NCBI GenBank assembly: GCA_913056185.1
Contig: CAJXLV010000014.1
Span: 1 to 64,000 of the forward strand
Source: an uncultured Bacteroidota bacterium
GTDB lineage: Bacteria > Bacteroidota > Rhodothermia > Rhodothermales > Salinibacteraceae
Length of the DNA: 64,000 bases
Reading direction: 5' to 3'
The translations under genes were made by a program, and so were the position numbers. This document shows positions 28,407 to 51,268 of the stretch, piece by piece. Below the pieces are notes generated by a model. That model ran no database searches, was not told where the DNA came from, and was given only the letters and a program-made list of their open reading frames with translations. Position 1 is the stretch's first letter. Each line of letters begins with the position of its first letter.

Positions 28407-29207
28407 ATGCTCGTCGTCGACTCCCTTGAGGTTTCGCTGGGCGGCCACACTGTACTGCAGCAGGTGGGCTTCACGGCCGCGGCGGGCGAATGGGTGGGCA
28501 TCGTGGGGCCGAATGGAGCAGGAAAGACTACGCTTCTGCGCGCCCTTGGGGGGCATGTACCCGTAGAGGGGACAATCCGCCTGCGGGGCACGCTGCTCGA
28601 CGGCATGACGGCTTCGGAGCGGGCCCGCACCATTGCGTTTGTGCGCCAGGCGCGGTCGCTCGCCTTTGACTTTACGGTCGAAGAGTTTGTGCTGCTCGGC
28701 CGTGCCCCGCACCGAGGGTGGCTGCAGGCATACCGGGCCGAGGATCGGGAGCGTGTTCGTGCGGCACTGCGCCGGGTGGACCTGCACACGTTTGCCGACC
28801 GGTCGGTGCTTTCGCTCAGTGGCGGGGAGATGCAGCGTGTCTTTCTGGCGCAGGCCCTGGTGCAGGACGCCGATCTGCTGCTGCTCGACGAGCCGACGGC
28901 CCACCTGGACGTGCAGTATCAGTTTTCGTTTTTGGAGCAGGTACAGGCCCAGGCGGCGGCAGGGCGCACGGTGCTCGCGGTGGGGCACGATCTGGAGCAG
29001 GCCGCCCGCTACGCCGATCGCCTTCTGCTGCTCGATGAGGGCACGCTCCGTGCTGCCGGGCCGCCCGAGGCGGTGCTTACCCCTGCCCGCATTGCGGACG
29101 TCTTTGGGGTGCGCGCAGAGCTGAGCCGACGCGCGGACGGTACGCTTCGCATCGACTATCACGGGGCCGTGTCGTCCCGGGGCGAGCCGGCAGGCGCGCC
29201 TTCGTGA
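28407..29207 (+). CDS. FecCD/BtuD-type ABC transporter ATP-binding protein
   Basis: A 266-residue ATPase subunit of the HmuV/BtuD/FecE class, energising import of haem, cobalamin or ferric siderophores. Walker A GPNGAGKTT at residues 34-42, Q-loop at Q81, signature LSGGE at 137-141, Walker B LLLLDEPT at 157-164 and the H-loop GHD near 195 are intact. No permease or binding-protein gene lies nearby; the next gene is a cobalamin adenosyltransferase, which favours B12 uptake, but haem is equally possible. The ATG at 28407 is preferred over in-frame starts at 28362 and 28326 because the family start aligns there. Confidence 0.85.
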   Translation: MLVVDSLEVSLGGHTVLQQVGFTAAAGEWVGIVGPNGAGKTTLLRALGGHVPVEGTIRLRGTLLDGMTASERARTIAFVRQARSLAFDFTVEEFVLLGRAPHRGWLQAYRAEDRERVRAALRRVDLHTFADRSVLSLSGGEMQRVFLAQALVQDADLLLLDEPTAHLDVQYQFSFLEQVQAQAAAGRTVLAVGHDLEQAARYADRLLLLDEGTLRAAGPPEAVLTPARIADVFGVRAELSRRADGTLRIDYHGAVSSRGEPAGAPS

Positions 29208-29447
29208 GCCCGCGCGGCCCGCAAGTAGCGCAGGAGTCCCCGTCGCTTGCTCCCGGGAAGGCTCGGTCCATTCCCCCGCGTCTGTAGTCCGGCTGTTAGA
29301 GTATTGAGGATGCGCGAAGGAGCAGTACCCCTTCCGGCTTTGGCCGGGGGAGAAGGCAACAGGTCGGAAACGCACTTCGTCGCTGGGCGTGTCAACGCTC
29401 GCACGCAGTTTGCAGTCTCTCTTTGCCCCCCCCGCCTTCTTTTTTTG

Positions 29448-30044
29448 ATGAGCAAAACGATCTATACCGGAACGGGCGACGACGGCACCACCTCCCTCTT
29501 TGGGGGAGAGCGCGTGGCCAAAGGCAACCCGCGCATCGACGCGTACGGCACAGTGGATGAGGCCAACTCCACCGTTGGCCTGGCCCGCGCCCACCTGCGG
29601 GGCGAGCCGGGGGAAGAGACGCTGGACCCCGTGCTGGGCGACCTGCAAGATGAGCTCTTTGTGCTGGGGGCCGACCTTGCAACCCCGATCGATGCCAAGC
29701 CGGTGGTGGAGCGCATCGAAGCGGCACACGTAGAGGCGCTGGAGGCCCGCATCGACCGGTTTGATGCCGAGCTCCCGTCGCTCGACCGCTTCATCTTGCC
29801 GGGCGGCACGCCGGCCGGGGCCTCGCTCCACGCGGCCCGTACCGTGTGCCGCCGTGCCGAACGCCACACCGTGGAGGCGCGGGCCGCTACCCCAATTAAC
29901 GAACAGGCGATGGTTTACCTCAACCGCCTGTCCGATTTGCTGTTTGTGCTGGCGCGGTGGGCCAATCACCAGGCGGGCGTGCAAGAAGATGCCTGGAAGC
30001 CGAGCCCTGCGGATGCCGACGACGCGCCTTCCACGGACGCGTAG
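29448..30044 (+). CDS. Cob(I)alamin adenosyltransferase, PduO type
   Basis: A 198-residue ATP:cob(I)alamin adenosyltransferase making adenosylcobalamin. The N-terminal 'TYTGTGDDGTTSLFGGERV'-like start (read as YTGTGDDGTTSLF) is the ATP-binding P-loop of the family. 'DAYGTVDEANS' follows, then 'GGTPAGASLHAARTVCRRAER' near residue 123-143, which carries the conserved Arg and Glu, and 'YLNRLSDLLFVLAR'. Length fits. Start: the ATG at 29448, after a T-rich stretch. It lies 240 bp downstream of the BtuD/HmuV-like ATPase, suggesting a corrinoid handling pair. The genome also uses B12-free metE. Confidence 0.92.
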   Translation: MSKTIYTGTGDDGTTSLFGGERVAKGNPRIDAYGTVDEANSTVGLARAHLRGEPGEETLDPVLGDLQDELFVLGADLATPIDAKPVVERIEAAHVEALEARIDRFDAELPSLDRFILPGGTPAGASLHAARTVCRRAERHTVEARAATPINEQAMVYLNRLSDLLFVLARWANHQAGVQEDAWKPSPADADDAPSTDA

Positions 30045-31592: not shown

Positions 31593-32588
31593 ATGGAGTG
31601 CGCACTTCGAAGTCATTCAGTAACGGTTCCGGGGCCGCTTTTGCTGGTGCACGGCGGCGCATGGGCCATTCCGGACGCGAGCCTTTTTGCGCACGCGGAT
31701 GGGCTGCGGCACGTACTGGCGACGGGGCGGGCGCGGCTGGGCAGGGGACAGGCTGCATTGCGGCTCGTCACGGGGACTGCCGCGGCGCTGGAGGCCCACG
31801 GAGCGTTCAACGCGGGATACGGGGCCATGCTGAACCAAGACGGCGAGGCGGAGCTGGACGCCGGGGTGATGCAGGGGGCCACGCTGGCGTACGGGGCCGT
31901 CCTGGCGACGCGTCGCCTGGCGCATCCGGTGCAGGTGGCGCGCCGACTGCTGACGGAGGGCAACGGCCGCGTGCGGATGCTGGCGGGGGACGGGGCGGAG
32001 CGGTTTGCGGAGGCCCAGGGCATGGGCCTCGTGCCCAACGAGGCCCTCATCTGCCCGCGCGAGCAGCGTCGCTACGAGCGGCTGCGGGACCAGGCGGACG
32101 CCGAGCATCCCAGTCATTCGTTCCTTCCAGGTGCGGAGACGCCTGGTGGGGGCGACACGGTGGGAGCTGTGGCCCGCGATGCGAACGGCCGCCTCGCCGC
32201 CGCCACCTCTACGGGCGGTACGCCTTTCAAGCCACCAGGGCGCGTGGGCGACGCGCCGCTGCCGGGTGCAGGCTTTTACGCCGACGAAGACGTGGCGGTG
32301 AGTGCCACGGGCTGGGGCGAGGCCATTGCGGCCACGGGGCTCGCCCGCGACGTGCGAATGCATGTGCGCAGCGGGGCTGCAGCCGAGGCGGCAGCGCGGC
32401 GCGCCCTCACGCGCATGCACGACCGCGTCCAGTCGCCGGACGGGGCCGGGGCCACGGGGGGCTGCATCGTCGTCACGCCCACCGATGCCGCCTACGCCTT
32501 TACGACGCCCCGCATGGCCCGGGGATGGACCGCCCCCGCGGCGGACACCGCACACTGGGCCGTGGAGCCGACTACCACACCACATTGA
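31593..32588 (+). CDS. Isoaspartyl peptidase/L-asparaginase (Ntn hydrolase)
   Basis: A 331-residue type-2 asparaginase-like precursor that self-cleaves into alpha and beta chains. The nucleophile is T189 in GGGDTVGAVARD, the usual cleavage site, and 'STGGTPFKPPGRVGDAPLPGAGFYAD' (residues about 206-231, quoted in part) is the substrate-binding signature. 'AFNAGYGAMLNQDG' near 71-84 is the conserved N-terminal element. It would hydrolyse isoaspartyl dipeptides or asparagine. Start: ATG at 31593, 8 bp after the M23 gene, so co-transcription is likely. Its last codons overlap the end of the convergent TonB receptor gene by 17 bp. Confidence 0.93.
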   Translation: MECALRSHSVTVPGPLLLVHGGAWAIPDASLFAHADGLRHVLATGRARLGRGQAALRLVTGTAAALEAHGAFNAGYGAMLNQDGEAELDAGVMQGATLAYGAVLATRRLAHPVQVARRLLTEGNGRVRMLAGDGAERFAEAQGMGLVPNEALICPREQRRYERLRDQADAEHPSHSFLPGAETPGGGDTVGAVARDANGRLAAATSTGGTPFKPPGRVGDAPLPGAGFYADEDVAVSATGWGEAIAATGLARDVRMHVRSGAAAEAAARRALTRMHDRVQSPDGAGATGGCIVVTPTDAAYAFTTPRMARGWTAPAADTAHWAVEPTTTPH

Positions 32589-34626
32589 GCCCCGCAGACA
32601 CCGACCGGTCCGGGGCGGGCTCGTAGTAGCGCCCCCCGAAGGCATTGACCACCACGGAGCCTGCGTACCGCTCGTCCAGCACATTCTGCAGGGCCACAAA
32701 CGGCTTCACCGTCGCGCCGCCAAGGGGGAGTCCCTTGTGCCCCACGTTTAGGTTTACCAGCACGTAGCGAGGGGCGGTGGCGGTGTTGGCATCGTTGGTG
32801 AAGTAGCGGGGCACGCCCTGTCCCGAAAGCCGCCCCCACCATCCGTCGTGGGACACCTCGGTGTGCAGGTACAGCCGCCGACTGGGAATGCCCGGCACGC
32901 GGTTGCCAGTGATCGACGAGTCCTCGGCCGCGTCGATCACAAACCGGGTGCCCGTGTAGCGGGCCGCCACCTCCAGGCCGGGCGCGGCTTGCCACGTGAG
33001 ACTGGCCTCAATGCCGTCGTGGGTATTGGCCGCGAGGTTGTCGTAGACCTCACGCCCGGAGGCGTCCTCGTACGCAGAGATGAGGTCGTCAACCTCCAGG
33101 CGGTAGAGAGACACGTCAAACTGAAGGCGAGCGCCGGGCACCACGCCCCGGGCGCCCACCTCAAAGCCCCGCGTGCGCTGCGGCTCCACCTGCTGGTTGA
33201 AGCCCCCGCCTCCGCCCGGACGGTTGGAGAGCTCGGAGGCGGTGGGCGTCTCGAACGCCGTGCTGTACTGCGCAAAGAGCTGGGCCGGGCCGGCATCGAA
33301 GGACACTCCGAGAGTCGGGCTGACCGACGAGAACGTGCGGGTGCCAGACTGATCGCCGTCGCGGGGGAGTCGATCGTCGGCCTCAAATCTCGTCTGGTCG
33401 ATCCGGAGCCCCCCCGTGAGCGCGATTCGTTCGGTGGCCGCGAAGCGGAGGTACCCGAACGCCGATCCACTGCGCACCGTCTCCAGTTGCTCCAGGCCGG
33501 TGTTGCCGGCAGGAGTCCCCTGTGCCGACGTAGAATCGAACTCGATGCGGTCGTCGGACTGGAGTGCAGCATCCACGCCCAGTCCGCCTTGCACCCGGCC
33601 CTCGGTGCGCCGGAGCGTGAAGCGCGTGCCCCCGCTCCAGCGCGTGTAGCGAATAAAGGCGTAGTTGAGGGGATTGTCGAGCGCCCGGCGCAGGCCGTAG
33701 GCCGTGCCGGAGAGCGTGGCGCCCCCGAGGTCGTGGTCGAGAGTGGCGCCGAGTTGCACCTGCGAGCTTTCCTTGCCCGCGTTCACCGCCACAAAGGCTG
33801 GGCGGGCCTGGGCCGGGTCGCGTTCAAACTGCGCGCGGGTAAGGCTGCTGGGGTTCTCCGTGTCCTGCTGATCGGCCGCCAGCGTGAGGCGCAGGTGGGT
33901 GTCGGGGCCGAGCGAGCGGCGTGCCGTGCCGCCTGCGCGGAGGCGATAGCCCTGGCTGTGATCGCGGTAGCCGGCCTGGCGCTGGCCAGAGGCGTATCCG
34001 TGAAGGGACCAGCCGCCGAGGCGCCCGCCGCCTTCGATCAGTCCCTGCCACCGCCCGTGGCTGCCGCCCTGCACGCGAACACGGGTGGGGGGCGGGCCCG
34101 CACCCGTCGACGATGAGAGGAAGAGCACCCCTCCGCTCCCGTTGCCCCAAAACACAGCGGACGGGGACCGAACAAGCTCCACCTGCCGCACCACCGCAGG
34201 GTCCACCACGTCCAGAAACGCCTGTCCGTCGGGCAGCGTGAGTGGAATGCCGTCGTAGAGCACCTGCACGCCGCGCACGCCAAAGTTGGAGCGATAGCCC
34301 ACGCCGCGCACGCTGATGCGTTCGCCAAGGGCAAAGTGATGCCGGTCGTTCACCCAGATGCCGGGCAGGGGGCGCAGCACATCATCGAGGGAGGCGGACG
34401 GGGTGAGGGCGAGCGCGGTGGGCGAGCGCGACTGTACGGTGACCGAGAACGGCGCATCGGCCAGCGTCTCTGCAGCACGTGTGGCCTCGATGGTAAGCTC
34501 GGGCAGACGGATCCGATCGTCCGAGGCCGTGGTGTCGGGAGCTGTGGTGGTCGGGGTTTGGGCGTGAAGGGGCAGCGTGGGAAGAAGAAGGAGGGTGCAC
34601 AGAACGCATGCACGCAAACCGGTCAT
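32572..34626 (-). CDS. TonB-dependent receptor
   Basis: A 684-residue outer-membrane receptor. A signal peptide (residues 1-23, ending PLHAQ) is followed by a short linker and a TonB-box-like 'LPELTIEATRA' near 39-50. The plug domain includes 'DVLRPLPGIWVNDRHHFALGERISVRG', 'GVRGVQVLYDGIPLTLPDGQ' and 'VELVRSPSAVFWGNGSGGVLFL' (partial quotes), and the 22-strand barrel ends ...NVVW. It likely imports iron chelates or cobalamin, but no ligand can be read. The gene overlaps the convergent asparaginase end by 17 bp and lies upstream, on the same strand, of nothing else but follows the SpoIID-like gene by about 43 bp, so the two could be co-transcribed. Confidence 0.9.
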   Translation of the reverse strand: MTGLRACVLCTLLLLPTLPLHAQTPTTTAPDTTASDDRIRLPELTIEATRAAETLADAPFSVTVQSRSPTALALTPSASLDDVLRPLPGIWVNDRHHFALGERISVRGVGYRSNFGVRGVQVLYDGIPLTLPDGQAFLDVVDPAVVRQVELVRSPSAVFWGNGSGGVLFLSSSTGAGPPPTRVRVQGGSHGRWQGLIEGGGRLGGWSLHGYASGQRQAGYRDHSQGYRLRAGGTARRSLGPDTHLRLTLAADQQDTENPSSLTRAQFERDPAQARPAFVAVNAGKESSQVQLGATLDHDLGGATLSGTAYGLRRALDNPLNYAFIRYTRWSGGTRFTLRRTEGRVQGGLGVDAALQSDDRIEFDSTSAQGTPAGNTGLEQLETVRSGSAFGYLRFAATERIALTGGLRIDQTRFEADDRLPRDGDQSGTRTFSSVSPTLGVSFDAGPAQLFAQYSTAFETPTASELSNRPGGGGGFNQQVEPQRTRGFEVGARGVVPGARLQFDVSLYRLEVDDLISAYEDASGREVYDNLAANTHDGIEASLTWQAAPGLEVAARYTGTRFVIDAAEDSSITGNRVPGIPSRRLYLHTEVSHDGWWGRLSGQGVPRYFTNDANTATAPRYVLVNLNVGHKGLPLGGATVKPFVALQNVLDERYAGSVVVNAFGGRYYEPAPDRSVSAGLNVVW

Positions 34627-43111: not shown

Positions 43112-43240
43112 GGCGACAAGCGCAATGTCGCGACGCCCGAAAGATGAGCGCATGTGCATGTGTGGTCGTGCTCACCCGAGGAACCAGGGGACACGTGCGG
43201 CGATTGTTCCCGCGCACTTATGCCAACGTCCCCCTGAGCC

Positions 43241-43621
43241 ATGTCTCAGCGCCGTCCTCTTTTGGCCCGCCTCCTGCTTCTGGCGTTTGTCGTCGGGAGC
43301 GTAGTGGGCCCGGTTTTTCACCGGGTGGACCACGCGGAGGCACAAGAGAGGAAGCAAAGCAATGCGGCGTGCCATGCGTCCGAGGTCCACAACGCCGACA
43401 CGGCCGTCTGGACGGGGGCGACCAAGGACGGCATCGTGCCGGAGTGCGTGCTGTGTACGACGCGCCTTCTGGTGCTGCCGCCGGTGCCGGTGCGCCCCGC
43501 TTCGCCTCGCGTCGCAGGGACCGAGGGGCGCCGTCCAGGGCCGGACCGCATCGCGACTCTGGCCGTCTCCCACCAATTCATCCGAGGGCCTCCGGGGGCG
43601 TCGGAGGCCCGTCTGGCGTAG
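43241..43621 (+). CDS. Small exported His/Cys protein (DUF2946-like)
   Basis: A 126-residue protein with an N-terminal hydrophobic signal (residues about 8-24). Potential metal ligands are H27 and H31 (HRVDH), C44-H45, H50, and a C69-x-x-C72 pair (CVLC). After that it becomes hydrophobic then Arg/Pro-rich. The His-rich start, CxxC and small size recall DUF2946-type proteins encoded beside metal TonB receptors, but identity is uncertain. The next gene is a ZnuD-like TonB receptor 191 bp downstream on the same strand, supporting a periplasmic metal-binding role. The C-terminal third looks low-complexity and could be degenerate. Confidence 0.6.
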   Translation: MSQRRPLLARLLLLAFVVGSVVGPVFHRVDHAEAQERKQSNAACHASEVHNADTAVWTGATKDGIVPECVLCTTRLLVLPPVPVRPASPRVAGTEGRRPGPDRIATLAVSHQFIRGPPGASEARLA

Positions 43622-43812
43622 CCGCCGTGTTGCCGTCCGCCGCGGACCGCTGCTGAACCGGTCGCCCACGATCCACTGCGTGGGCGCGCAGCCGTAGCCC
43701 CGGCGGCCCTCCGTGCGACCGCTGCGCGGACTGGGTCTCTGCCTCTTTTCTCTCCCCGTAGCAAGCCGGGGACCCCGCTCCGCGTCGTTGCACCACACCC
43801 CTTCTGTCCCTC

Positions 43813-46221
43813 ATGACTCTTCGTACGGTTCTTTCGAGCCTTCTTCTTCTCATTGCGTTTTCTGTAACGATCGCCTCGGCCCAGCAGTCTGGCCGCGGCG
43901 TGGTCGCTGGTACTGTAACGGGCCCGGACGGCGCGCCCCTGCCGGGCGTGCAGGTCGTCGACCCGGCCTTCCAGCGCGGCACTACCACCGGCGCCGACGG
44001 CCAGTACCGCCTCGACAACCTGCCTCTCGGCGAGCACACCCTCGAATTTCGCTTCGTCGGCTACCAGACCGCCGTCCGCACCGTGACGCTCGAAGCCGGC
44101 GAGACGGCGACCGTCGACGTGTCGCTCCAGACCCGTGTGCTGGAGACGCAGGGCGTCACGATTACCGGCACCGCCCGCGCCCGCAGTACGCTCCGCGCGC
44201 CGCAAGACGTGGACGTGATGGATGCGCAGGACCTCCAGGGCACCAGCAGCGCCGCACTCGGCGAATTGCTGCAGGAAAACGTGGACGGCGTGTCGTCCGT
44301 CCAGACGGGCTCGCAGGCGGGCAAGCCGGTGCTTCGGGGCCTGAGCGGAAACCGGGTCGTGCTGTTGAAGGACGGCATCGCGCAGGAGTACTACCAGTTC
44401 GGCGTCCGTCACTTTCCCACCACCAACGCCAGCGAAGCCGAGCGCGTAGAGGTGGTACGCGGGGCCAGCAGCATCCTCTACGGCTCCGACGCCCTGGGCG
44501 GGGCCATCAACGTCATCAGCAAGCCCGCCCCCACCACCGGTGTCGACGAATTCGAGGTCAACGGGTCCGCGTCCACCCAGTACTTTACCAACAACAACGA
44601 GCGGGCGGTCTCTCTCGACCTGAGCGCGGCGCAGGGGAACGTGGGCTGGCGCGTAGGGGCCGAGCGCCGCATCGCCGATAACTACCACACGCCCGACGCT
44701 TCTCCCTTCTCGGAAACGGGGAAGGGAGGCACCTACGGCGACCCGCGCTACACCGGCGAGGTGCCCTTCACCAATTTCGAGCAGTGGAGCACCTACGGAC
44801 AGGTGGGCCTGCAGGGCGCGTTCGGGACGCTCCAGCTCTACGGCGACTACTGGTCGAACGCCCACAACTTCCTTCTTCCCGCGGGCGGCACGCCGGGACA
44901 GACGCCGTTCCCGGCCGCCGGCCTCGGCCAGAACCTGGCGCACAGCAACGTCGCGTTGAAGGGCAACATCGTCGCCGATGGCTTCGTGTTCAAGCCGCGC
45001 CTGAGCTGGCAGCGCTCCATCCGACAGTCGGGCGCGCCGGGCACCAACCTGGGCGATATTCGCGACGACGGCGGGCTGGGGGGCTTCGACTACCCGCTCG
45101 ACCTCAAGACCGACATCTACACCGGGCGCCTGGAGGTGGCGCATCCCTCGATCGGCAATCTCAGCGGCACGATTGGGGCGGAGGTGCAGCACCAGGACGC
45201 CGACACGCGCGGCCCGGCCGAGCTGCAGCCCTCGGCCCGCACGTGGAATACCGGCGTCTTCTTCTTTGAGGACCTGGACCTCGACCCGGTGACGCTCTCG
45301 TTCGGGAGCCGGCTGGACGTGCGCACGGTGGAGGCGGTGTCCAACGACCGCACCACTGATTCCGACCAGCTGGACAACACGTACACCACCCTTTCGGGGG
45401 CCGTGGGGGCCAGCTACGCGTTCGGCGACGGGATCGCGATCGCGACGAACCTGAGCTCCGGCTTCCGCGCGCCCTCCATCTTCGAGCTCTACGCGAGCGG
45501 TGTGCACGGCGGCGTGGCGGCCTTTCAGGTCGGCAACCCGGATCTGGACCCGGAGCGCTCCTACAGCGCCGATCTGTCGCTGCGCGTGCGGCGCGACCGC
45601 CTCACCGCCGAGGTGACCGGCTACGTCAATGCCATCCAGAATTACATCTACCTGGAGAATACGGGTGAGAAGGGCCCCAATGGGAATCTTCCGAAATTTG
45701 CCGCCGACCAGACCGACGCCCTGATCCCGGGCATCGAGGCGACGGTCGAGACGAGCCCGCTGCCGTGGCTGCAGGTGGGCGGCTCCGCCGCGGTGCTCGA
45801 CGGCACCGGCGACGGCCTGGGGGCGGACGGGGGCGACGGCGAGCTTCCGCTGCTGCCGTCCAACACCGTCAGTGGCTTTGTGCGCTGGGTTCCCGCCGAC
45901 ACGGGTCCCCTCAGCAACTCGCAGGTGGAGCTCTCGCTGAAGCGGTCGCTTGAGAAGGACGCTGCCGGCCGGTTCGAGCCCTTCTCCCAGTTCGACGAAG
46001 GCTTTGGCCCGCCGTTCGGCACGGCCTCGACGCGCGCCTACAGCGTCGTCAACGTGGAGGCCCGCACCACGCTGGCGCTGGGCCTGGGCGCGCCCCTCAC
46101 CGTCTCGGTCGGCGTGGACAACCTGCTCGACGAGACGTACCGCGACTTCCTGGACACGTACAAGGGGTATGCACTCTCGCCAGGGCGGGACGTGCAGTTC
46201 AGCCTGTCGACCTCCTTTTAA
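43813..46221 (+). CDS. TonB-dependent receptor, ZnuD-like
   Basis: An 802-residue outer-membrane receptor. Signal peptide 1-24 (ending IASAQ); residues about 27-107 are a carboxypeptidase-like regulatory domain (GTVTGPDGAPLPGVQV); the plug follows about 110-235 with 'KPVLRGLSGNRVVLLKDGI' and 'EVVRGASSILYGSDALGGAINVIS' (partial); the rest is a barrel ending in Phe. The segment 'LYASGVHGGVAAFQVGNPDLDPE' (about 555-577, quoted in part) resembles the ZnuD-type zinc receptors' ...H-G...F..GNP.L.PE block. Neighbours (CobW GTPase, ZIP-like carrier) fit zinc or another divalent metal. The ligand is inferred, not shown. Confidence 0.85.
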   Translation: MTLRTVLSSLLLLIAFSVTIASAQQSGRGVVAGTVTGPDGAPLPGVQVVDPAFQRGTTTGADGQYRLDNLPLGEHTLEFRFVGYQTAVRTVTLEAGETATVDVSLQTRVLETQGVTITGTARARSTLRAPQDVDVMDAQDLQGTSSAALGELLQENVDGVSSVQTGSQAGKPVLRGLSGNRVVLLKDGIAQEYYQFGVRHFPTTNASEAERVEVVRGASSILYGSDALGGAINVISKPAPTTGVDEFEVNGSASTQYFTNNNERAVSLDLSAAQGNVGWRVGAERRIADNYHTPDASPFSETGKGGTYGDPRYTGEVPFTNFEQWSTYGQVGLQGAFGTLQLYGDYWSNAHNFLLPAGGTPGQTPFPAAGLGQNLAHSNVALKGNIVADGFVFKPRLSWQRSIRQSGAPGTNLGDIRDDGGLGGFDYPLDLKTDIYTGRLEVAHPSIGNLSGTIGAEVQHQDADTRGPAELQPSARTWNTGVFFFEDLDLDPVTLSFGSRLDVRTVEAVSNDRTTDSDQLDNTYTTLSGAVGASYAFGDGIAIATNLSSGFRAPSIFELYASGVHGGVAAFQVGNPDLDPERSYSADLSLRVRRDRLTAEVTGYVNAIQNYIYLENTGEKGPNGNLPKFAADQTDALIPGIEATVETSPLPWLQVGGSAAVLDGTGDGLGADGGDGELPLLPSNTVSGFVRWVPADTGPLSNSQVELSLKRSLEKDAAGRFEPFSQFDEGFGPPFGTASTRAYSVVNVEARTTLALGLGAPLTVSVGVDNLLDETYRDFLDTYKGYALSPGRDVQFSLSTSF

Positions 46222-46392
46222 AGCGCCTGCGGGCCGGACGAAGAGCAGGGGCGCAGTGGAGGCCGCGCTGCCCCCTGCCCGTCCCGCTCCCACGATGAAT
46301 CCTCAACGTGGCCTCTCCGGGGCATCGGGGAGCCTCTCATTATTCTCAACGTACTCCTCACTCATTCCACTACGATTGCACTGAACACCGCA

Positions 46393-46857
46393 ATGACTGT
46401 ACTCTCGCACGTTCCCAAGTCCGTCTGTTCCCTTCTCACAGTCCTCGCGCTCTCCGTCGCGCTGGGCGCCTTCCTCCCAACCCCCTCCCACGCACAGGAG
46501 GCCGAAAAGACCGTCGTCGTACACATCGGACAATACTCCAACGACCTCCACTCGGCCACGATGGGCGTGAGCCTGGCCCATAAGATGCAAGAGGCCGGCG
46601 CGCAGGTCACCATCTTTGTCGACCGCGAAGCCGTACGGATGGGCGAGCAGGGGCAGCCGCTCCTCACCTACGGCGATTCGGATCTCGATACGCTGCTGTC
46701 GAACTACCTCGACGGCGGCGGCTCGGTGCTCGTGTGCCCACACTGCGCGGAGCTCGGCGGCGTCGAGCCTTCCGAGCTGCGGGACGGCTTCGAGATGGGC
46801 ACGCAAGAGTCCATTACCGAACTGTTCATGAACGCCGACACGGTGGTGGACTACTGA
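46393..46857 (+). CDS. Exported DsrE-like protein with CPHC motif
   Basis: A 154-residue protein with a signal peptide (residues 1-34, ending SHAQ) and a DsrE/DsrF-like domain: 'VVVHIGQYSNDLHSATMGVSLAHKMQEAGAQVTIF' (quoted in part, about 41-76), 'GQPLLTYGDSDLDTLLSNYLDGGGSVLVCPHCAELGG' (partial). The C115-x-x-C118 pair sits where DsrE proteins have their sulfur- or metal-binding cysteine. Most family members are cytoplasmic sulfur-transfer proteins; export is unusual. It follows the TonB receptor by 171 bp. A role in binding or delivering metal or sulfur in the periplasm is inferred. Confidence 0.75.
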   Translation: MTVLSHVPKSVCSLLTVLALSVALGAFLPTPSHAQEAEKTVVVHIGQYSNDLHSATMGVSLAHKMQEAGAQVTIFVDREAVRMGEQGQPLLTYGDSDLDTLLSNYLDGGGSVLVCPHCAELGGVEPSELRDGFEMGTQESITELFMNADTVVDY

Positions 46858-46887
46858 GAGAACTTAAGCAGACCGCCGGCAGCACAA

Positions 46888-46929
46888 CGGACGCCTGAAC
46901 GCGTCCGCGGTCCTCAATCCGGGATTGAG
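46888..46929. promoter_or_regulatory. Two adjacent perfect dyads between DsrE-like and bicupin genes
   Basis: CGGACGC/GCGTCCG (46888-46907, 6-nt loop) is followed by CTCAATCC-G-GGATTGAG (46913-46929). The first could be a terminator stem without a T-tract; the second, nearly spacer-free, looks like an operator 93 bp before the bicupin start. Confidence 0.4.
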
Positions 46930-47021
46930 AGTCGGAGCGGGCGGCCCATCGCCCAGGCTGTTGGCGCGACTATCGTTGTGTAGACCTTCGATCTCTTTTC
47001 GACACACACCAGCGAGACCCC

Positions 47022-47666
47022 ATGACTCCTCCAGACCAGAGTATTTCTCGTCCTGCGAGCGACCACGTGACAACGGTGCACCGGACCCCGTACGCGGTTG
47101 TGCGTCGGGTCGATCTCCCGGCAGGAGCGGGCCTTCCGGAGCACGAAGGCGGTCCGCGGGTCATCTACTCCCTCCGCCCGTACACGATGCGGTTCGAGGC
47201 CGAGGGGCAATCGTCCGAACGGCACTTTGAGGCCGGGGACGTCCACTTCCACGCGGAAGGGCCGCACGCGGTGCAGAACACGGGCGACCAGCCGGCCGCC
47301 TTCCTTGCCTTTGTGCGCACCGACGGCTCCCTGCCCGCCGGGGCTCCGGACGAGGACCTTGGCGACGCCGCCGCGTCCCTTCCCGACGGCGCCTCCCACG
47401 AGGTTGTGCTCGAAAACGATCGTGTGCTGGTGCGCCGAGTGGCGCTGGAGCCGGGCGCGTCGATCCCGCCGCACGACGCCCCGCCCCCGCGCATCGTCTA
47501 CGCCCTCACGAACTACACCCTCACGATTGGAGACCCGGAGGACGACACCCGAGAGGAGCGGTCGTTTGCGGAGGGGGACCTGCACGACCAGGGGCCGGGC
47601 CGGGAGCGGGTGGAGAACACCGGCGACACCCGGGCGGCGTACCTGGTGGTCGCCTTCAAGCAGTAG
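47022..47666 (+). CDS. Bicupin domain protein
   Basis: A 214-residue cytoplasmic protein (no signal) with two cupin repeats. The first has potential metal ligands H41 (PEHEGG), H75, H77 ([12 protein letters not shown]) and H82. The second has H151 (PPHDAPP) and H188 (DLHDQGPG) but lacks the final His, where 'RVEN' replaces 'AVQN'-type sequence, so only the first half may bind metal. Repeats share the '[11 protein letters not shown]' / '[11 protein letters not shown]' strand pair. No substrate is evident. It lies between the DsrE-like and CobW genes on one strand, so a metal-handling or signalling role is inferred from context only. Confidence 0.8.
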
Positions 47667-47724
47667 ATTTCGTGCCCCAAAGGCCCTTCGTCGTTCTTGC
47701 TGCCAGTTTCTATTCGTGTTTGTA

Positions 47725-48930
47725 ATGCCCGATAAGCTTCCCGTCACCGTTCTGTCCGGCTACCTCGGCGCTGGCAAGACGACACTCCTCCAGCACATTC
47801 TTCACAACGCCGAGGACAAGCGCATTGCCGTCATTGTGAACGACATGGCCGAGGTCAACATCGACGCCTCGCTCGTCGAGGAACAGTCCGACCTCGTCCA
47901 GACCGAAGAGAGCCTGGTGGAGATGTCGAACGGCTGTATCTGCTGTACGATGCGGGAGGACCTGCTCACCGAGGTCAAGGAACTGGCCGACGACGGCCGG
48001 TTCGACCATCTGGTGATTGAGTCGAGCGGCATCTCGGAGCCAATGCCGGTGGCCGTGACGTTCGACCTGTCCGACGAGTTTGGGCACACCCTCTCCGAGA
48101 TTGCGAAAATCGACACGATGGTGACGGTCGTGGATGCGCACCGGTTCACCGAGGACTTCAACTCGACCGATCTGCTCGCGGATCGGGGGCAAGAGACCGG
48201 GCCGGACGACGAGCGGACCCTGGTCGATCTGCTGGTCGATCAAGTTGAGTTTGCAAACGTCATCCTGATCAACAAGACGGACCTCGTCTCCGACGAGCAG
48301 GTCCAGTTTTTAAAGAATGTGCTCCGGACGCTCAATCCGGAGGCAACGCTCATCCCGACCCAGCACTCGGAGGTCGATCTGGGCGCGATCATGGGCACGG
48401 GGGCGTTCGATTTTGAGGCCGCTCAGAACATGCCGGGGTGGGTCAAGGAACTGGACGGCGAGCACGTGCCGGAAACCGAGGAGTACGGCATCACAAGCTT
48501 TACGTACCAGGCACGGGCGCCCTTTCATCCCCGGCGCTTCTGGGACTTTTTCCAGGGGCCGTGGCCCGGCGTCATTCGGGCGAAGGGATTCTTCTGGCTC
48601 GCCACGCGCAGCGCTCTGGTCGGCGAGCTGTCGCAGGCGGGACGGATGCGAGACCAGCGCCCCACCGGCTACTGGTGGGCGGCCCTTCCCGAGCATCGAT
48701 GGCCGGACGCTTCACGGCAGCAAGAGCGTATCCTCGACCGCTGGGATGACACCTATGGGGATCGGCGGCAGGAACTTGTCTTCATTGGCGTCGACGTCGA
48801 CGAAGCCGATCTGCGCCGGCGACTTGATGGGTGCCTGATGACAGAGGTGGAGATCGATGCGTATCATGAGGCTCCGTCGTCTCTTTCCGATCCCTTCCCC
48901 GACTGGGCGGTGGAGCAGTCCGCCCGGTAG
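47725..48930 (+). CDS. CobW-like GTP-binding metal chaperone
   Basis: A 401-residue G3E GTPase of the CobW/ZNG1/YciC class. Walker A GYLGAGKT is at residues 12-19; the metal-binding CxCC motif is C71-I-C73-C74 (NGCICC); '[10 protein letters not shown]' near 97-106 is the switch-type element and NKTD the guanine motif (about 180). A CobW C-terminal domain follows from about 255 ([14 protein letters not shown]...). No long His-rich loop is present. These proteins deliver zinc (or cobalt) to client enzymes under metal limitation. Start: ATG 47725. It is part of the same-strand run with the ZIP-like gene 86 bp later. Confidence 0.9.
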
Positions 48931-49016
48931 GGGGGCAATCGTCTGTCGTTTTTGGTGTCGCTGGGGGCTCGGCCTCTTTTTTGGATTTCACAAGTGCACG
49001 GAACTCAATCACTGCC

Positions 49017-49910
49017 ATGACTTCGCTGCTGTCGCGTTTGAAGAATCGAGAGGACTCCGTAGGGGAAACGATGGCCCTGCTGACGGGAGGGGGCGGGATG
49101 GTTGTCCTGACTGCCGTCGGGCTGGCGGCCTCCCTGACCAAGCTGCTTGCCATCGCCTGGGTAGCGTTTGGGGCGATGATGGTGGGAGCCTGGATGGGCG
49201 CCCGGTCCGAGGAGGGAGCCTCCGCCGCGACGAAGCAACGGGGCGTGGGGCTGGTCTGGGCCTACGGGCTGTCCAGCGGGGCGATGATCACGAGCGCAAC
49301 CCTGTTTCTCGTCCCGAATGCAATTTCTCACCACGCGGCCCTCGGCGGACTCGGCATCGCGGTCGGCATCGTCGGCGGGTTTTCGATCCACACGCTGCAC
49401 GCCGGGTCGGGGCACACGGGCGGTGCGGCGCGCTCCGTGACCTGGGAGTTGACGCTGCACGCGCTTGGGGCCGGCCTGGTCATCGGGGCCGTCTACGCCG
49501 CAATGCCGGCGCTGGGGTCCACGCTCGGCCTCGCCATCGTGTCGCACAAGGCACCGGCAGGCTACGCGGCGGCCCGTCGGCTGCGCCGGCACGGCCGGTC
49601 GGTGTTGCCGCTGCTGCTTCCGGCCGCGGCCGTGGGCCTCACCGCCCTGCCCGTGGGCCTCGCCGATCCGCCGACGCTGAATGGCCTCCACGCCCTCGTG
49701 TTTGGGGGCGCCACCGGCCTTTTCCTGCACGTGGCCCTCGACTTTCTTCCTCGGTGTGAGTGGCGGCACGGGCTGCACCCGGGCGCGGCAGGCGGCTCCG
49801 GCGATCGGGGTGGGGCGGCAGGGGGGCACGCCCACCGGCTGCGCTGGCGGGCAATAGGGAGCACGCTCCTGGGGGGCGCGGTGGTCGTCGCAGCGTGGGC
49901 CCTGCTGTAG
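49017..49910 (+). CDS. ZIP-like divalent metal transporter
   Basis: A 297-residue polytopic protein with about 7-8 membrane segments. H148 in LTLHALGAGLVIG and H177 in AIVSHKAPAGYAAA occupy the positions of the ZIP transport-site histidines on segments 4 and 5. The second motif reads HKAPAG where many have HEIPHE or HNIPEG, so ion choice may differ. A His-containing loop (HHAALGG, HTLHAGSGH at about 105-133) could sense metal. The ATG at 49017 is preferred over a TTG at 48981. Context (CobW, TonB receptor) suggests zinc uptake across the inner membrane. Export or another cation cannot be excluded. Confidence 0.75.
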   Translation: MTSLLSRLKNREDSVGETMALLTGGGGMVVLTAVGLAASLTKLLAIAWVAFGAMMVGAWMGARSEEGASAATKQRGVGLVWAYGLSSGAMITSATLFLVPNAISHHAALGGLGIAVGIVGGFSIHTLHAGSGHTGGAARSVTWELTLHALGAGLVIGAVYAAMPALGSTLGLAIVSHKAPAGYAAARRLRRHGRSVLPLLLPAAAVGLTALPVGLADPPTLNGLHALVFGGATGLFLHVALDFLPRCEWRHGLHPGAAGGSGDRGGAAGGHAHRLRWRAIGSTLLGGAVVVAAWALL

Positions 49911-50017: not shown

Positions 50018-51268
50018 GTGCCCACCTCCGCCCGCACCGACCTGCCACTGCCTCTGCGAGGCACTGAGCCTGGCTCGTTCACGCACCGCACCATCGCCGA
50101 GCGCTGGCCGCGCATTGCGGGGCGGGTGATCGACGAGAACGCGTTCCCGGCGCCGGTCAACGCGCGCCTTCAGGCGCTCCGTGAGGCCCTCCCCGAGGGA
50201 TCCATCCGACCGCTCACGGACGAGGGCGCCCCCGACGCGGCGCTCTGGGCCGAGTGGGTGGCGCCGCACCAGGGAAAGGGGTGGCTGGAGGCGCCGTGGT
50301 TTTTTGGGGAGACCTACTTCTACCGCCGTCTCCTGGAGGCCACTGGCTACTTTCAAGACGGCTCCACTCGGCAGCAGGACCCGTTCACGTACCAGAAGGA
50401 GGCAGGCCTCGCGGAGGCGGCCGACGACATTGAGGCGCTGGCGGAGGGGCGCGCTGCCGCCCGGGCGCAGGAGGAGGCCTCACGAACGACGCTCCAAGGG
50501 CTCTTCCGGGCGGCGCTCTGGGGCAACCAGGCCGATCTCAGCATGTGGGCGGCGGGCGAAGACGGCCCCAACCACCAGGGCACGGACCGCGCGGAGGAGC
50601 ACCTGCTTGTGGACGATAGCGCCGCGGCGCTCGACCATCTGCTCGCGCTGGAGCCCCCCACCCGCGTCGATCTCTGGGCCGACAACGCGGGCTTCGAGCT
50701 CGTGTCCGACCTCGCGCTCATCGACGGCCTGTTGGATACGGAGGCGGTGACGCAGGTGGTGGTGCACCTGAAAGGCCACCCCACGTTCGTCTCCGATGCG
50801 CTCGTCGACGACGTACACGCGACCCTCGACTGCCTCACCACGCCGCACACCGACGCCGTGCGCGCCCTGGCCGAGCGGCTGCAGGCGGCGCTTGCGGACG
50901 GGCGCCTTCGCCTCCGCGACGCGTGGGTGTGGACCTCGCCGCTCCGGGCCCGCGAATTGCCCGCCCACACCCGCGCCGAGCTTGCGCGCGCCGATCTGCT
51001 CATCAGCAAGGGCGACGCCAACTACCGCCGCCTGCTGGGCGACCGGCAGTGGAACTTTGCGACGCCGTTTGCGGAGGCCCTCGCGCCCCTGCCGGTGCCG
51101 GTGCTTGCGCTGCGCACCCTCAAGGCCGAGGTGGCGGCGGGCCTCCCGGCCGCGCAGGTGCGGCGCCTCAACGATGCCGAGCCGGATTGGGCCGTGAATG
51201 GGCGCTGGGGGGGCATCCAGTACGCGCCCGCCGTGCCGGACGCCCGCCGGCCCACTGCCGCCCCGTGA
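50018..51268 (+). CDS. DUF89/ARMT1-type damage-control phosphatase
   Basis: A 416-residue protein of the DUF89 metal-dependent phosphatase family (human ARMT1 relative). Signature residues are D222-N223 in WADNAGFELVSDLALIDGLL (the nucleophile and metal site), the 'WFFGETYFYRRLLEATGYF' block near 95-113, and K331-G-D333 in LISKGDANYRR. It likely hydrolyses harmful phosphometabolites such as fructose-1-phosphate or related compounds. Start: a GTG at 50018; no in-frame ATG gives a better family start. It follows the ZIP-like gene by 107 bp and precedes yhbY by 52 bp. Confidence 0.85.
   Translation: MPTSARTDLPLPLRGTEPGSFTHRTIAERWPRIAGRVIDENAFPAPVNARLQALREALPEGSIRPLTDEGAPDAALWAEWVAPHQGKGWLEAPWFFGETYFYRRLLEATGYFQDGSTRQQDPFTYQKEAGLAEAADDIEALAEGRAAARAQEEASRTTLQGLFRAALWGNQADLSMWAAGEDGPNHQGTDRAEEHLLVDDSAAALDHLLALEPPTRVDLWADNAGFELVSDLALIDGLLDTEAVTQVVVHLKGHPTFVSDALVDDVHATLDCLTTPHTDAVRALAERLQAALADGRLRLRDAWVWTSPLRARELPAHTRAELARADLLISKGDANYRRLLGDRQWNFATPFAEALAPLPVPVLALRTLKAEVAAGLPAAQVRRLNDAEPDWAVNGRWGGIQYAPAVPDARRPTAAP

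Follow-up and report, generated by a model that had tools for sequence, protein, structure and literature searches.

A receptor-centred gene mosaic with a putative CruR-type leader and a probable link to zinc in a Salinibacter-like bacterium

Six neighbouring genes in an uncultured, salt-loving, Salinibacter-like bacterium raise the question of which metal they handle and whether they belong together. They lie on contig 14 of a 3.27 Mb genome (GCA_913056185.1, CAJXLV010000014.1), within the 64,000 nucleotides that were analysed (the window). An earlier note on this DNA had read them as one zinc acquisition and allocation locus, composed of a small exported His/Cys protein, a TonB-dependent receptor (TBDR), a DsrE-like protein, a bicupin, a CobW-type GTPase and a ZIP-like carrier. 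The six open reading frames (ORFs) were all found on the forward strand between 43241 and 49910, exactly where that note had put them, and its assignments held in kind. The six genes as one conserved unit could not be upheld. In the genus, which here means 13 Salinibacter-type genomes (the window genome and 12 others, the relatives being partly draft), the core consisted of the first ORF and the receptor only, while the GTPase, ZIP-like, DsrE and cupin genes were variable; the idea that all of Rhodothermota share one six-gene operon was given up. The locus is a receptor-centred mosaic of modules, each accompanying one receptor. Zinc is the metal best supported by the sequence comparisons, and with moderate confidence the locus is regarded as a zinc-scavenging transcription unit, the first gene of which would be a CruR-type leader ORF.

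The first ORF and its leader-like design

The first ORF encodes a signal peptide, a CVLC motif, 42 further residues, RGPP and an 8-residue tail, and it matched DUF2946 from end to end (1-117/117) with 20.2 bits against a Pfam cut-off of 23.7. By pattern search in the fetched loci, the CxxC-42-RGPP plan was identified in 16 genomes of the family, the 13/13 of the genus plus G167, G182 and G162, all with exactly 42 residues. The spacer sequence was conserved far less, with a mean identity of 39% in the genus (down to 19%), 29% across the 16 and no invariant column, and both the segment ahead of CxxC and the C-terminal tail differed in length. In other families the spacer had 42-45 residues, and RGPP was replaced by RAPP in G131, G034 and G175. 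Of the 761 genes of 85-220 aa predicted in the fetched loci, the DUF2946-like ones alone had both CxxC and a C-terminal R[AG]PP.

The same plan is known from Bordetella cruR, a DUF2946 ORF heading a TonB-receptor operon, whose nascent chain senses copper via CxxC and stops ribosomes at its C-terminal RAPP, the CxxC-RAPP spacing being conserved at 45 residues (PMC9426467); CutF is a related leader case (PMC9973294). Because the spacer length was fixed though its sequence diverged, with CxxC and RGPP kept as in ribosome-arrest leaders, the first ORF is probably a metal-sensing leader rather than a protein component. The exported His/Cys protein of the earlier note keeps its signal peptide and its Cys and His residues, but its build is that of a metal-sensing leader and not, as the note took it, of a structural component. 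It could instead be an ordinary exported metal-binding protein or a chaperone of the receptor system, with RGPP inside a folded domain and no arrest involved; the signal peptide and the His residues conserved besides Cys would suit this, and CutF was once conjectured to be a chaperone, but the exact spacing in an otherwise nearly dissimilar sequence makes such a protein unlikely.

In the locus of G175 two leader ORFs were observed (L075:463 and L075:9935), the second heading a periplasmic binding protein-like gene and a FecCD-like permease; the latter set was also found after ZigA in G173.

Receptor, GTPase and the choice of metal

The receptor gene was present in 13/13 genus genomes, and its product is composed of a carboxypeptidase-like N-terminal domain (CTD), a plug and a barrel. 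When the barrel alone was searched against all solved chains, ZnuD was the best match (3.2e-12) and the heme receptor PhuR reached 8.1e-9, while the copper receptors OprC and CrtA were not among the matches listed. The ZnuD-like TonB receptor of the earlier note was borne out as a TonB receptor with ZnuD as best barrel match, but not as a member of the NCBIfam ZnuD model NF038289, with 144 bits against a cut-off of 950. ZnuD binds zinc through Asp99, His100, Glu340 and His499 (PMC4557270). H200 and H565 of the window receptor were invariant in 11 family receptors and aligned with H100 and H499; D99 corresponded to R199, an equivalent of E340 was not aligned, and the 11 receptors had no conserved Cys or Met. 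The two histidines support a metal-type ligand, without fixing zinc.

In another reading, the receptor would import heme or another metallophore and the remaining genes would be unrelated neighbours. The unfixed gene set would agree with this, and the NCBIfam heme subfamilies gave 168 bits, more than ZnuD, all scores being far below cut-off. The barrel is closer to ZnuD than to heme receptors, however, no heme gene was recognised beside the receptor, and ZigA, ZIP-like, DsrE and cupin genes were linked to it repeatedly and not at random, so this possibility is considered very improbable.

In S. altiplanensis the same receptor is followed (L081:14533-15867) by another DsrE-like piece, which has CDRC, by part of an oxidoreductase and by a small protein whose PHGDHVHY is a histidine-triad motif; a COG0523 GTPase and a ZIP-like gene come next.

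The GTPase, named earlier as CobW-type with CxCC, was specifically of the ZigA type with CICC. It gave 593.5 bits against the ZigA model NF038288, 6.5 below the curated cut-off of 600 and far above other COG0523 models, and PF02492 (187 bits), PF07683 (87 bits) and the P-loop completed a COG0523 architecture. It was present in 3/12 other genus genomes. Six genomes of the family (the window's, G147, G156, G152, G167 and G168) had a close-type ZigA at a few hundred bases to about 1 kb from the receptor orthologue; in G147 and G156, with receptor and ZigA 86-89% identical, it directly followed the receptor.

In three other families, leader-type ORFs headed ZigA itself, TBDR-ZigA or an operon of the Zrg/ZigA kind. 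In G131 and G034 the leader ORF (45-residue spacer, RAPP; in G131 above the DUF2946 cut-off, 25.0 versus 23.7 bits) directly headed ZigA at 272 and 301 nt, the distance to the receptor in the window being 191 nt. In G175 it headed TBDR-x-ZigA-CobW, and in G176 it lay 254 bp before LolD-FtsX-DUF3299-FAD-MerC-ZigA-ABC-2(DUF3526)-cupin.

Known zinc systems contain similar neighbours. In sister genomes, receptor, DsrE, cupin and ZigA genes were accompanied by a LolD-FtsX ABC system with DUF3299 or by a DUF3526 ABC-2 set. In Vibrio, zrgE-zrgB-zrgC encode DUF3299, an ABC permease and an ATPase and were 76- to 148-fold induced in zinc limitation (PMC9817125), zrgBCE being Zur-regulated; in the Caulobacter Zur regulon the TonB receptor znuK is paired with the ABC-2 system znuGHI (PMC4176598). 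The same regulon holds DUF2946 genes, one of which heads a zinc-efflux operon (PMC4176598), giving a precedent for DUF2946 near zinc genes. With the ZnuD-like barrel, the ZigA-type GTPase and these zinc-type sister neighbours, the part of the previously proposed zinc path from receptor to GTPase could be retained.

As had been said before, no ZnuABC or Zur gene was visible in the window. Elsewhere in the genome, one Fur-family gene, two canonical ZIPs and a single ZnuA-family system were found, the latter (L232, G000:C7:83000-95000) comprising a PF01297 binding protein, an ABC ATPase, two permeases and a DtxR-family regulator. It was not accepted as ZnuABC, since with the adjoining DtxR-family regulator manganese is equally likely.

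In the main rival reading, the locus would acquire copper in the manner of cruR-crtA: the leader would sense this metal, the receptor would take it up in chelated form, the ZIP-fold protein would handle a soft metal, and ZigA would be a bystander or a helper in mixed-metal stress. Both the CruR and CutF families are linked to copper, the CPHC motif and the cupin sites could bind it, and the ZIP-like protein retains M54, M90, H125, H148, H177, H238 and C247, invariant in 50 homologues, without carboxylates. On the other side, the same type of ORF directly heads ZigA in G131 and G034, the barrel matches ZnuD ahead of copper receptors, the locus type neighbours Zrg-like and ZigA genes, and neither PepSY_TM, PCuAC, Sco or CopC nor any further copper gene could be recognised next to these receptors. 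A copper unit is thus held to be unlikely.

Several points nevertheless weigh against a zinc-scavenging unit with a leader. The published CruR/CutF cases mostly concern copper and a few nickel or cobalt, with zinc proven for none; the window ORF falls under the DUF2946 cut-off, and its 42-residue spacer is slightly below the 45 of Bordetella. In the receptor, the ZnuD ligand D99 is R199 and the loops are without His-rich stretches. CrtA likewise shows just two conserved His, so the receptor histidines would leave the metal undecided, and heme receptors hold their ligand with the same His pair. The intergenic gaps are, in order, 191, 171, 164, 58 and 86 bp; a single transcript across the six genes is possible, but the 171- and 164-bp gaps ahead of the DsrE and cupin genes would allow separate promoters.

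From the gene anatomy, folds, conserved motifs and spacing, and recurrent linkage shown above, we infer a zinc route with the following transport, stalling and co-transcription steps. During its translation and export, the DUF2946-like peptide would sample metal with its CxxC. By analogy with Bordetella CruR, low metal would make the ribosome stall on the C-terminal RGPP and the downstream genes would be made, while ample metal would relieve the pause and expression would drop. The receptor, energised by TonB, would take in zinc or a small zinc complex, and the ZigA GTPase would hand zinc on to client enzymes. The DsrE protein with its CPHC, predicted to be periplasmic, and the bicupin may be optional accessories in or near the periplasm, probably binding metal or handling thiols; the ZIP-fold protein may be an optional membrane accessory, incapable of the usual ZIP carboxylate-centre use.

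It is proposed more tentatively that a CruR-type arrest-peptide leader has turned into a zinc sensor, replacing Zur at zinc-scavenging genes of Rhodothermales (ZnuD-like receptor, ZigA, Zrg-like ABC). No riboswitch has been described for copper or zinc, and CruR answers to copper (PMC9426467); a leader ORF of this type in front of ZigA and ZnuD-like genes would make its nascent chain a candidate zinc sensor. If true, zinc uptake would be under post-transcriptional control by a nascent chain, a new bacterial mode of zinc sensing, and this would account for zinc control at a locus showing no Zur-box-like palindrome.

Control signals and accessory genes

A 34-base element preceding the leader ORF was conserved across the genus, as footprinted from six genus genomes. 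Its core ATGNRCATRTGTGG occurred in 9/13 genus genomes, ahead of the DUF2946-like ORF in 9/9, with one additional copy elsewhere in one genome. An initial reading of the element as a second mini-ORF (MCMCGR...) was given up because the changes between species were not synonymous, and it is taken for a DNA signal. The predicted RNA stem before the receptor folded with z -1.4 in the window, where 16/200 shuffles folded equally well, and with z -2.1 to -4.2 in six of seven relatives and -0.6 in the seventh, the outer pairs taking two registers among species. The predicted folding is no more than suggestive of a structured stretch ahead of the receptor start. An Rfam search of the locus region gave nothing credible.

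A Zur-box-like palindrome TGCAAY-N3-RTTGCA (TGCAAYNNNRTTGCA) was found upstream of ZigA in G104, G112, G095 and G142. Among 255 fetched loci it was confined to ZigA loci and never occurred with the leader ORF, so that, in small numbers, the two seem to substitute for each other. A Zur box at the window locus was rejected, as the close variant TGCAACTNAGTTGCA had no match in the window with up to 3 mismatches allowed.

A protein of 111-112 aa with a ribbon-helix-helix-like start (MKRLNFTLD), a Cys zinc-ribbon-like end and no Pfam match is encoded after the ZIP-like gene in three genomes of Fodinibius (L124:10799-11134, L125:10826-11164, L126:10811-11149); in S. altiplanensis its gene precedes ZigA and a MerC-like gene (L058:5591-5929). 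By its sequence it is a candidate metal-responsive repressor.

The exported DsrE-like protein with CPHC of the earlier note was recognised by its fold, though it scored weakly in Pfam (19.6 bits, cut-off 22.7): ten Foldseek matches had E<=0.001, all DsrE/YchN folds save one designed cage, with YchN, DsrE and TusBCD at the top. CPHC and two His were invariant in five orthologues. The bicupin call also stood, with two cupin motifs by alignment, though Pfam gave 23.8 bits against a cut-off of 27.2. Only the N-terminal His set was retained in the window cupin, the C-terminal one being partly replaced, so that two complete sets were not found; the lipoprotein signal seen in relatives was also missing. 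The window cupin may be shifting its role or decaying.

Both genes were absent from 12/12 other genus genomes. The six genes are thus not conserved together, which the earlier note had named as an argument for unrelated neighbours; taken literally, this applies. Yet outside the genus DsrE and cupin genes recurred directly after the same receptor, so for these two the argument does not hold. The order was receptor-DsrE-cupin-LolD-FtsX-DUF3299-DUF2911 in G159, and receptor, one called ORF, DsrE and cupin in G182; DsrE-cupin stood at a contig end in G164, and the cupin directly followed the receptor orthologue in G162 and G168. In G168 the DsrE gene was grouped with LolD-FtsX, DUF3299 and DUF2911 genes and with those for another TonB receptor, a COG0523 GTPase and an alkaline phosphatase. 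DUF3299, FtsX and DUF2911 in the sister-genome loci were confirmed by Pfam. Random neighbourhood was rejected for DsrE and cupin because of this recurrence in sister genera, and both proteins are now candidates for a periplasmic role in zinc uptake by bacteria.

The ZIP-like protein had no Pfam and no NCBIfam match, and a 65% identical relative stayed below the Pfam ZIP cut-off (25 versus 35 bits). A profile search of its alignment against PDB sequences found nothing, hence a fold model was required. The AlphaFold model (pLDDT 85.5) matched BbZIP with Z 14.8-18.6, BbZIP taking all eight top places and the next fold reaching 7.4. BbZIP binds metal through M99, H177, N178, E181, Q207, D208, E211 and E240 (PMC9873690). 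By alignment, HNVPEG and QNFPEG of the host's own canonical ZIP corresponded to HALGAG (H148-A-L-G-A152) and HKAPAG (H177-K-A-P-A181), and the alpha-6 Glu was lost. The equivalents of N178, E181, D208, E211 and E240 were all replaced, leaving no metal centre of the usual kind on alpha-4, -5 and -6; H148, H177, K178 and A181 were invariant in the 50 homologues. The ZIP-like carrier thus keeps the ZIP fold, but not the canonical metal ligands, and without a carboxylate centre an inner-membrane zinc step through this protein, a part of the earlier zinc path, is doubtful.

Among the matches listed, its homologues were nearly all haloarchaeal, plus Salinibacter and Fodinibius, and about 25 of the 80 loci covered from named genomes had haloarchaeal ZIP-like genes near crtI, lycopene elongase and cruF. 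In L131 and about 25 other haloarchaeal loci with these carotenoid genes, an SDR dehydrogenase gene often stood just before the ZIP-like gene. The gene immediately followed the receptor in G155, G154 and QS_9_68_14/L129. In G147 (L056:4927-5749) the copy after ZigA was disrupted, with stops in frame and a shift of frame, and an intact paralogue lay elsewhere. A ZIP-fold family without metal-centre carboxylates, common to Salinibacter and haloarchaea, is a second question raised by the locus.

Features of the locus and comparison with known systems

Table 1. Coding and non-coding features of the locus (window coordinates)
Feature	Position	Strand	Basis or remark
Conserved upstream element ATGTGCATGTGTGGTCG..GAGGAACC	43152..43185	+	Likely promoter/operator region; six-genome phylogenetic footprint
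Putative CruR/CutF-type (DUF2946-like) upstream ORF, 126 aa	43241..43621	+	Signal peptide, CVLC, 42-residue spacer, C-terminal RGPP
Predicted RNA stem	43721..43795	+	In the 191-nt gap ahead of the receptor start; single-strand folding
ZnuD-like TonB-dependent receptor, 802 aa, core gene	43813..46221	+	Domain matches, barrel structure match
Exported DsrE-fold protein with CPHC, 154 aa	46393..46857	+	Fold match
Perfect inverted repeat CTCAATCC-G-GGATTGAG	46913..46929	+	8-1-8, between DsrE and cupin genes; direct sequence reading
Bicupin, 214 aa	47022..47666	+	Alignment; relatives are lipoproteins
ZigA-type COG0523 GTPase (P-loop, CICC), 401 aa	47725..48930	+	NF038288 match
ZIP-fold membrane protein without binuclear-centre carboxylates, 297 aa	49017..49910	+	AlphaFold model versus BbZIP

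A second hairpin, GGACGC..GCGTCC, adjoins the inverted repeat of Table 1. Immediately after the locus, an ARMT1-like damage-control phosphatase gene is located at 50018-51268. Further away in the window, an ABC ATPase gene is followed by a cobalamin adenosyltransferase gene (28407-30041), and a second TonB receptor lies near this pair on the reverse strand (32575-34626).

The nearest known design is cruR-bfrG(crtA)-bp2921 of B. pertussis (PMC9426467, PMC12914433), which also opens with a small ORF for an exported DUF2946 protein that has CxxC and, at a constant though slightly longer spacing, a C-terminal R-x-PP; here, too, a long gap and a TonB receptor gene follow. The window differs in its spacer (42 instead of 45), in RGPP instead of RAPP, in having ZigA, ZIP-like, DsrE and cupin genes downstream instead of PepSY_TM, and in a receptor nearer to ZnuD than to CrtA. 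With ZnuD of Neisseria (PMC4557270), the best solved barrel match, the receptor shares the plug-apical and loop-6 His aligned with H100 and H499, but it has Arg at D99, few loop His and an extra N-terminal carboxypeptidase-like domain. The GTPase resembles the ZigA (COG0523) zinc metallochaperone in its full-length NF038288 match, P-loop, CICC and zinc-type receptor neighbour, and differs by the 6.5 bits that it falls short of the curated cut-off. The ZIP-like protein shares with BbZIP and the host's canonical ZIPs the fold (Z 18.6), the alpha-4 His and the alpha-2 Met, but neither the metal-centre carboxylates nor a Pfam ZIP match. The window locus is without the ABC genes of ZrgABCDE (Vibrio) and znuK-znuGHI (Caulobacter); the likeness to these two systems is found in the sister genomes, where ZigA, DsrE or cupin genes stand together with LolD-FtsX-DUF3299 or DUF3526 ABC-2 genes.

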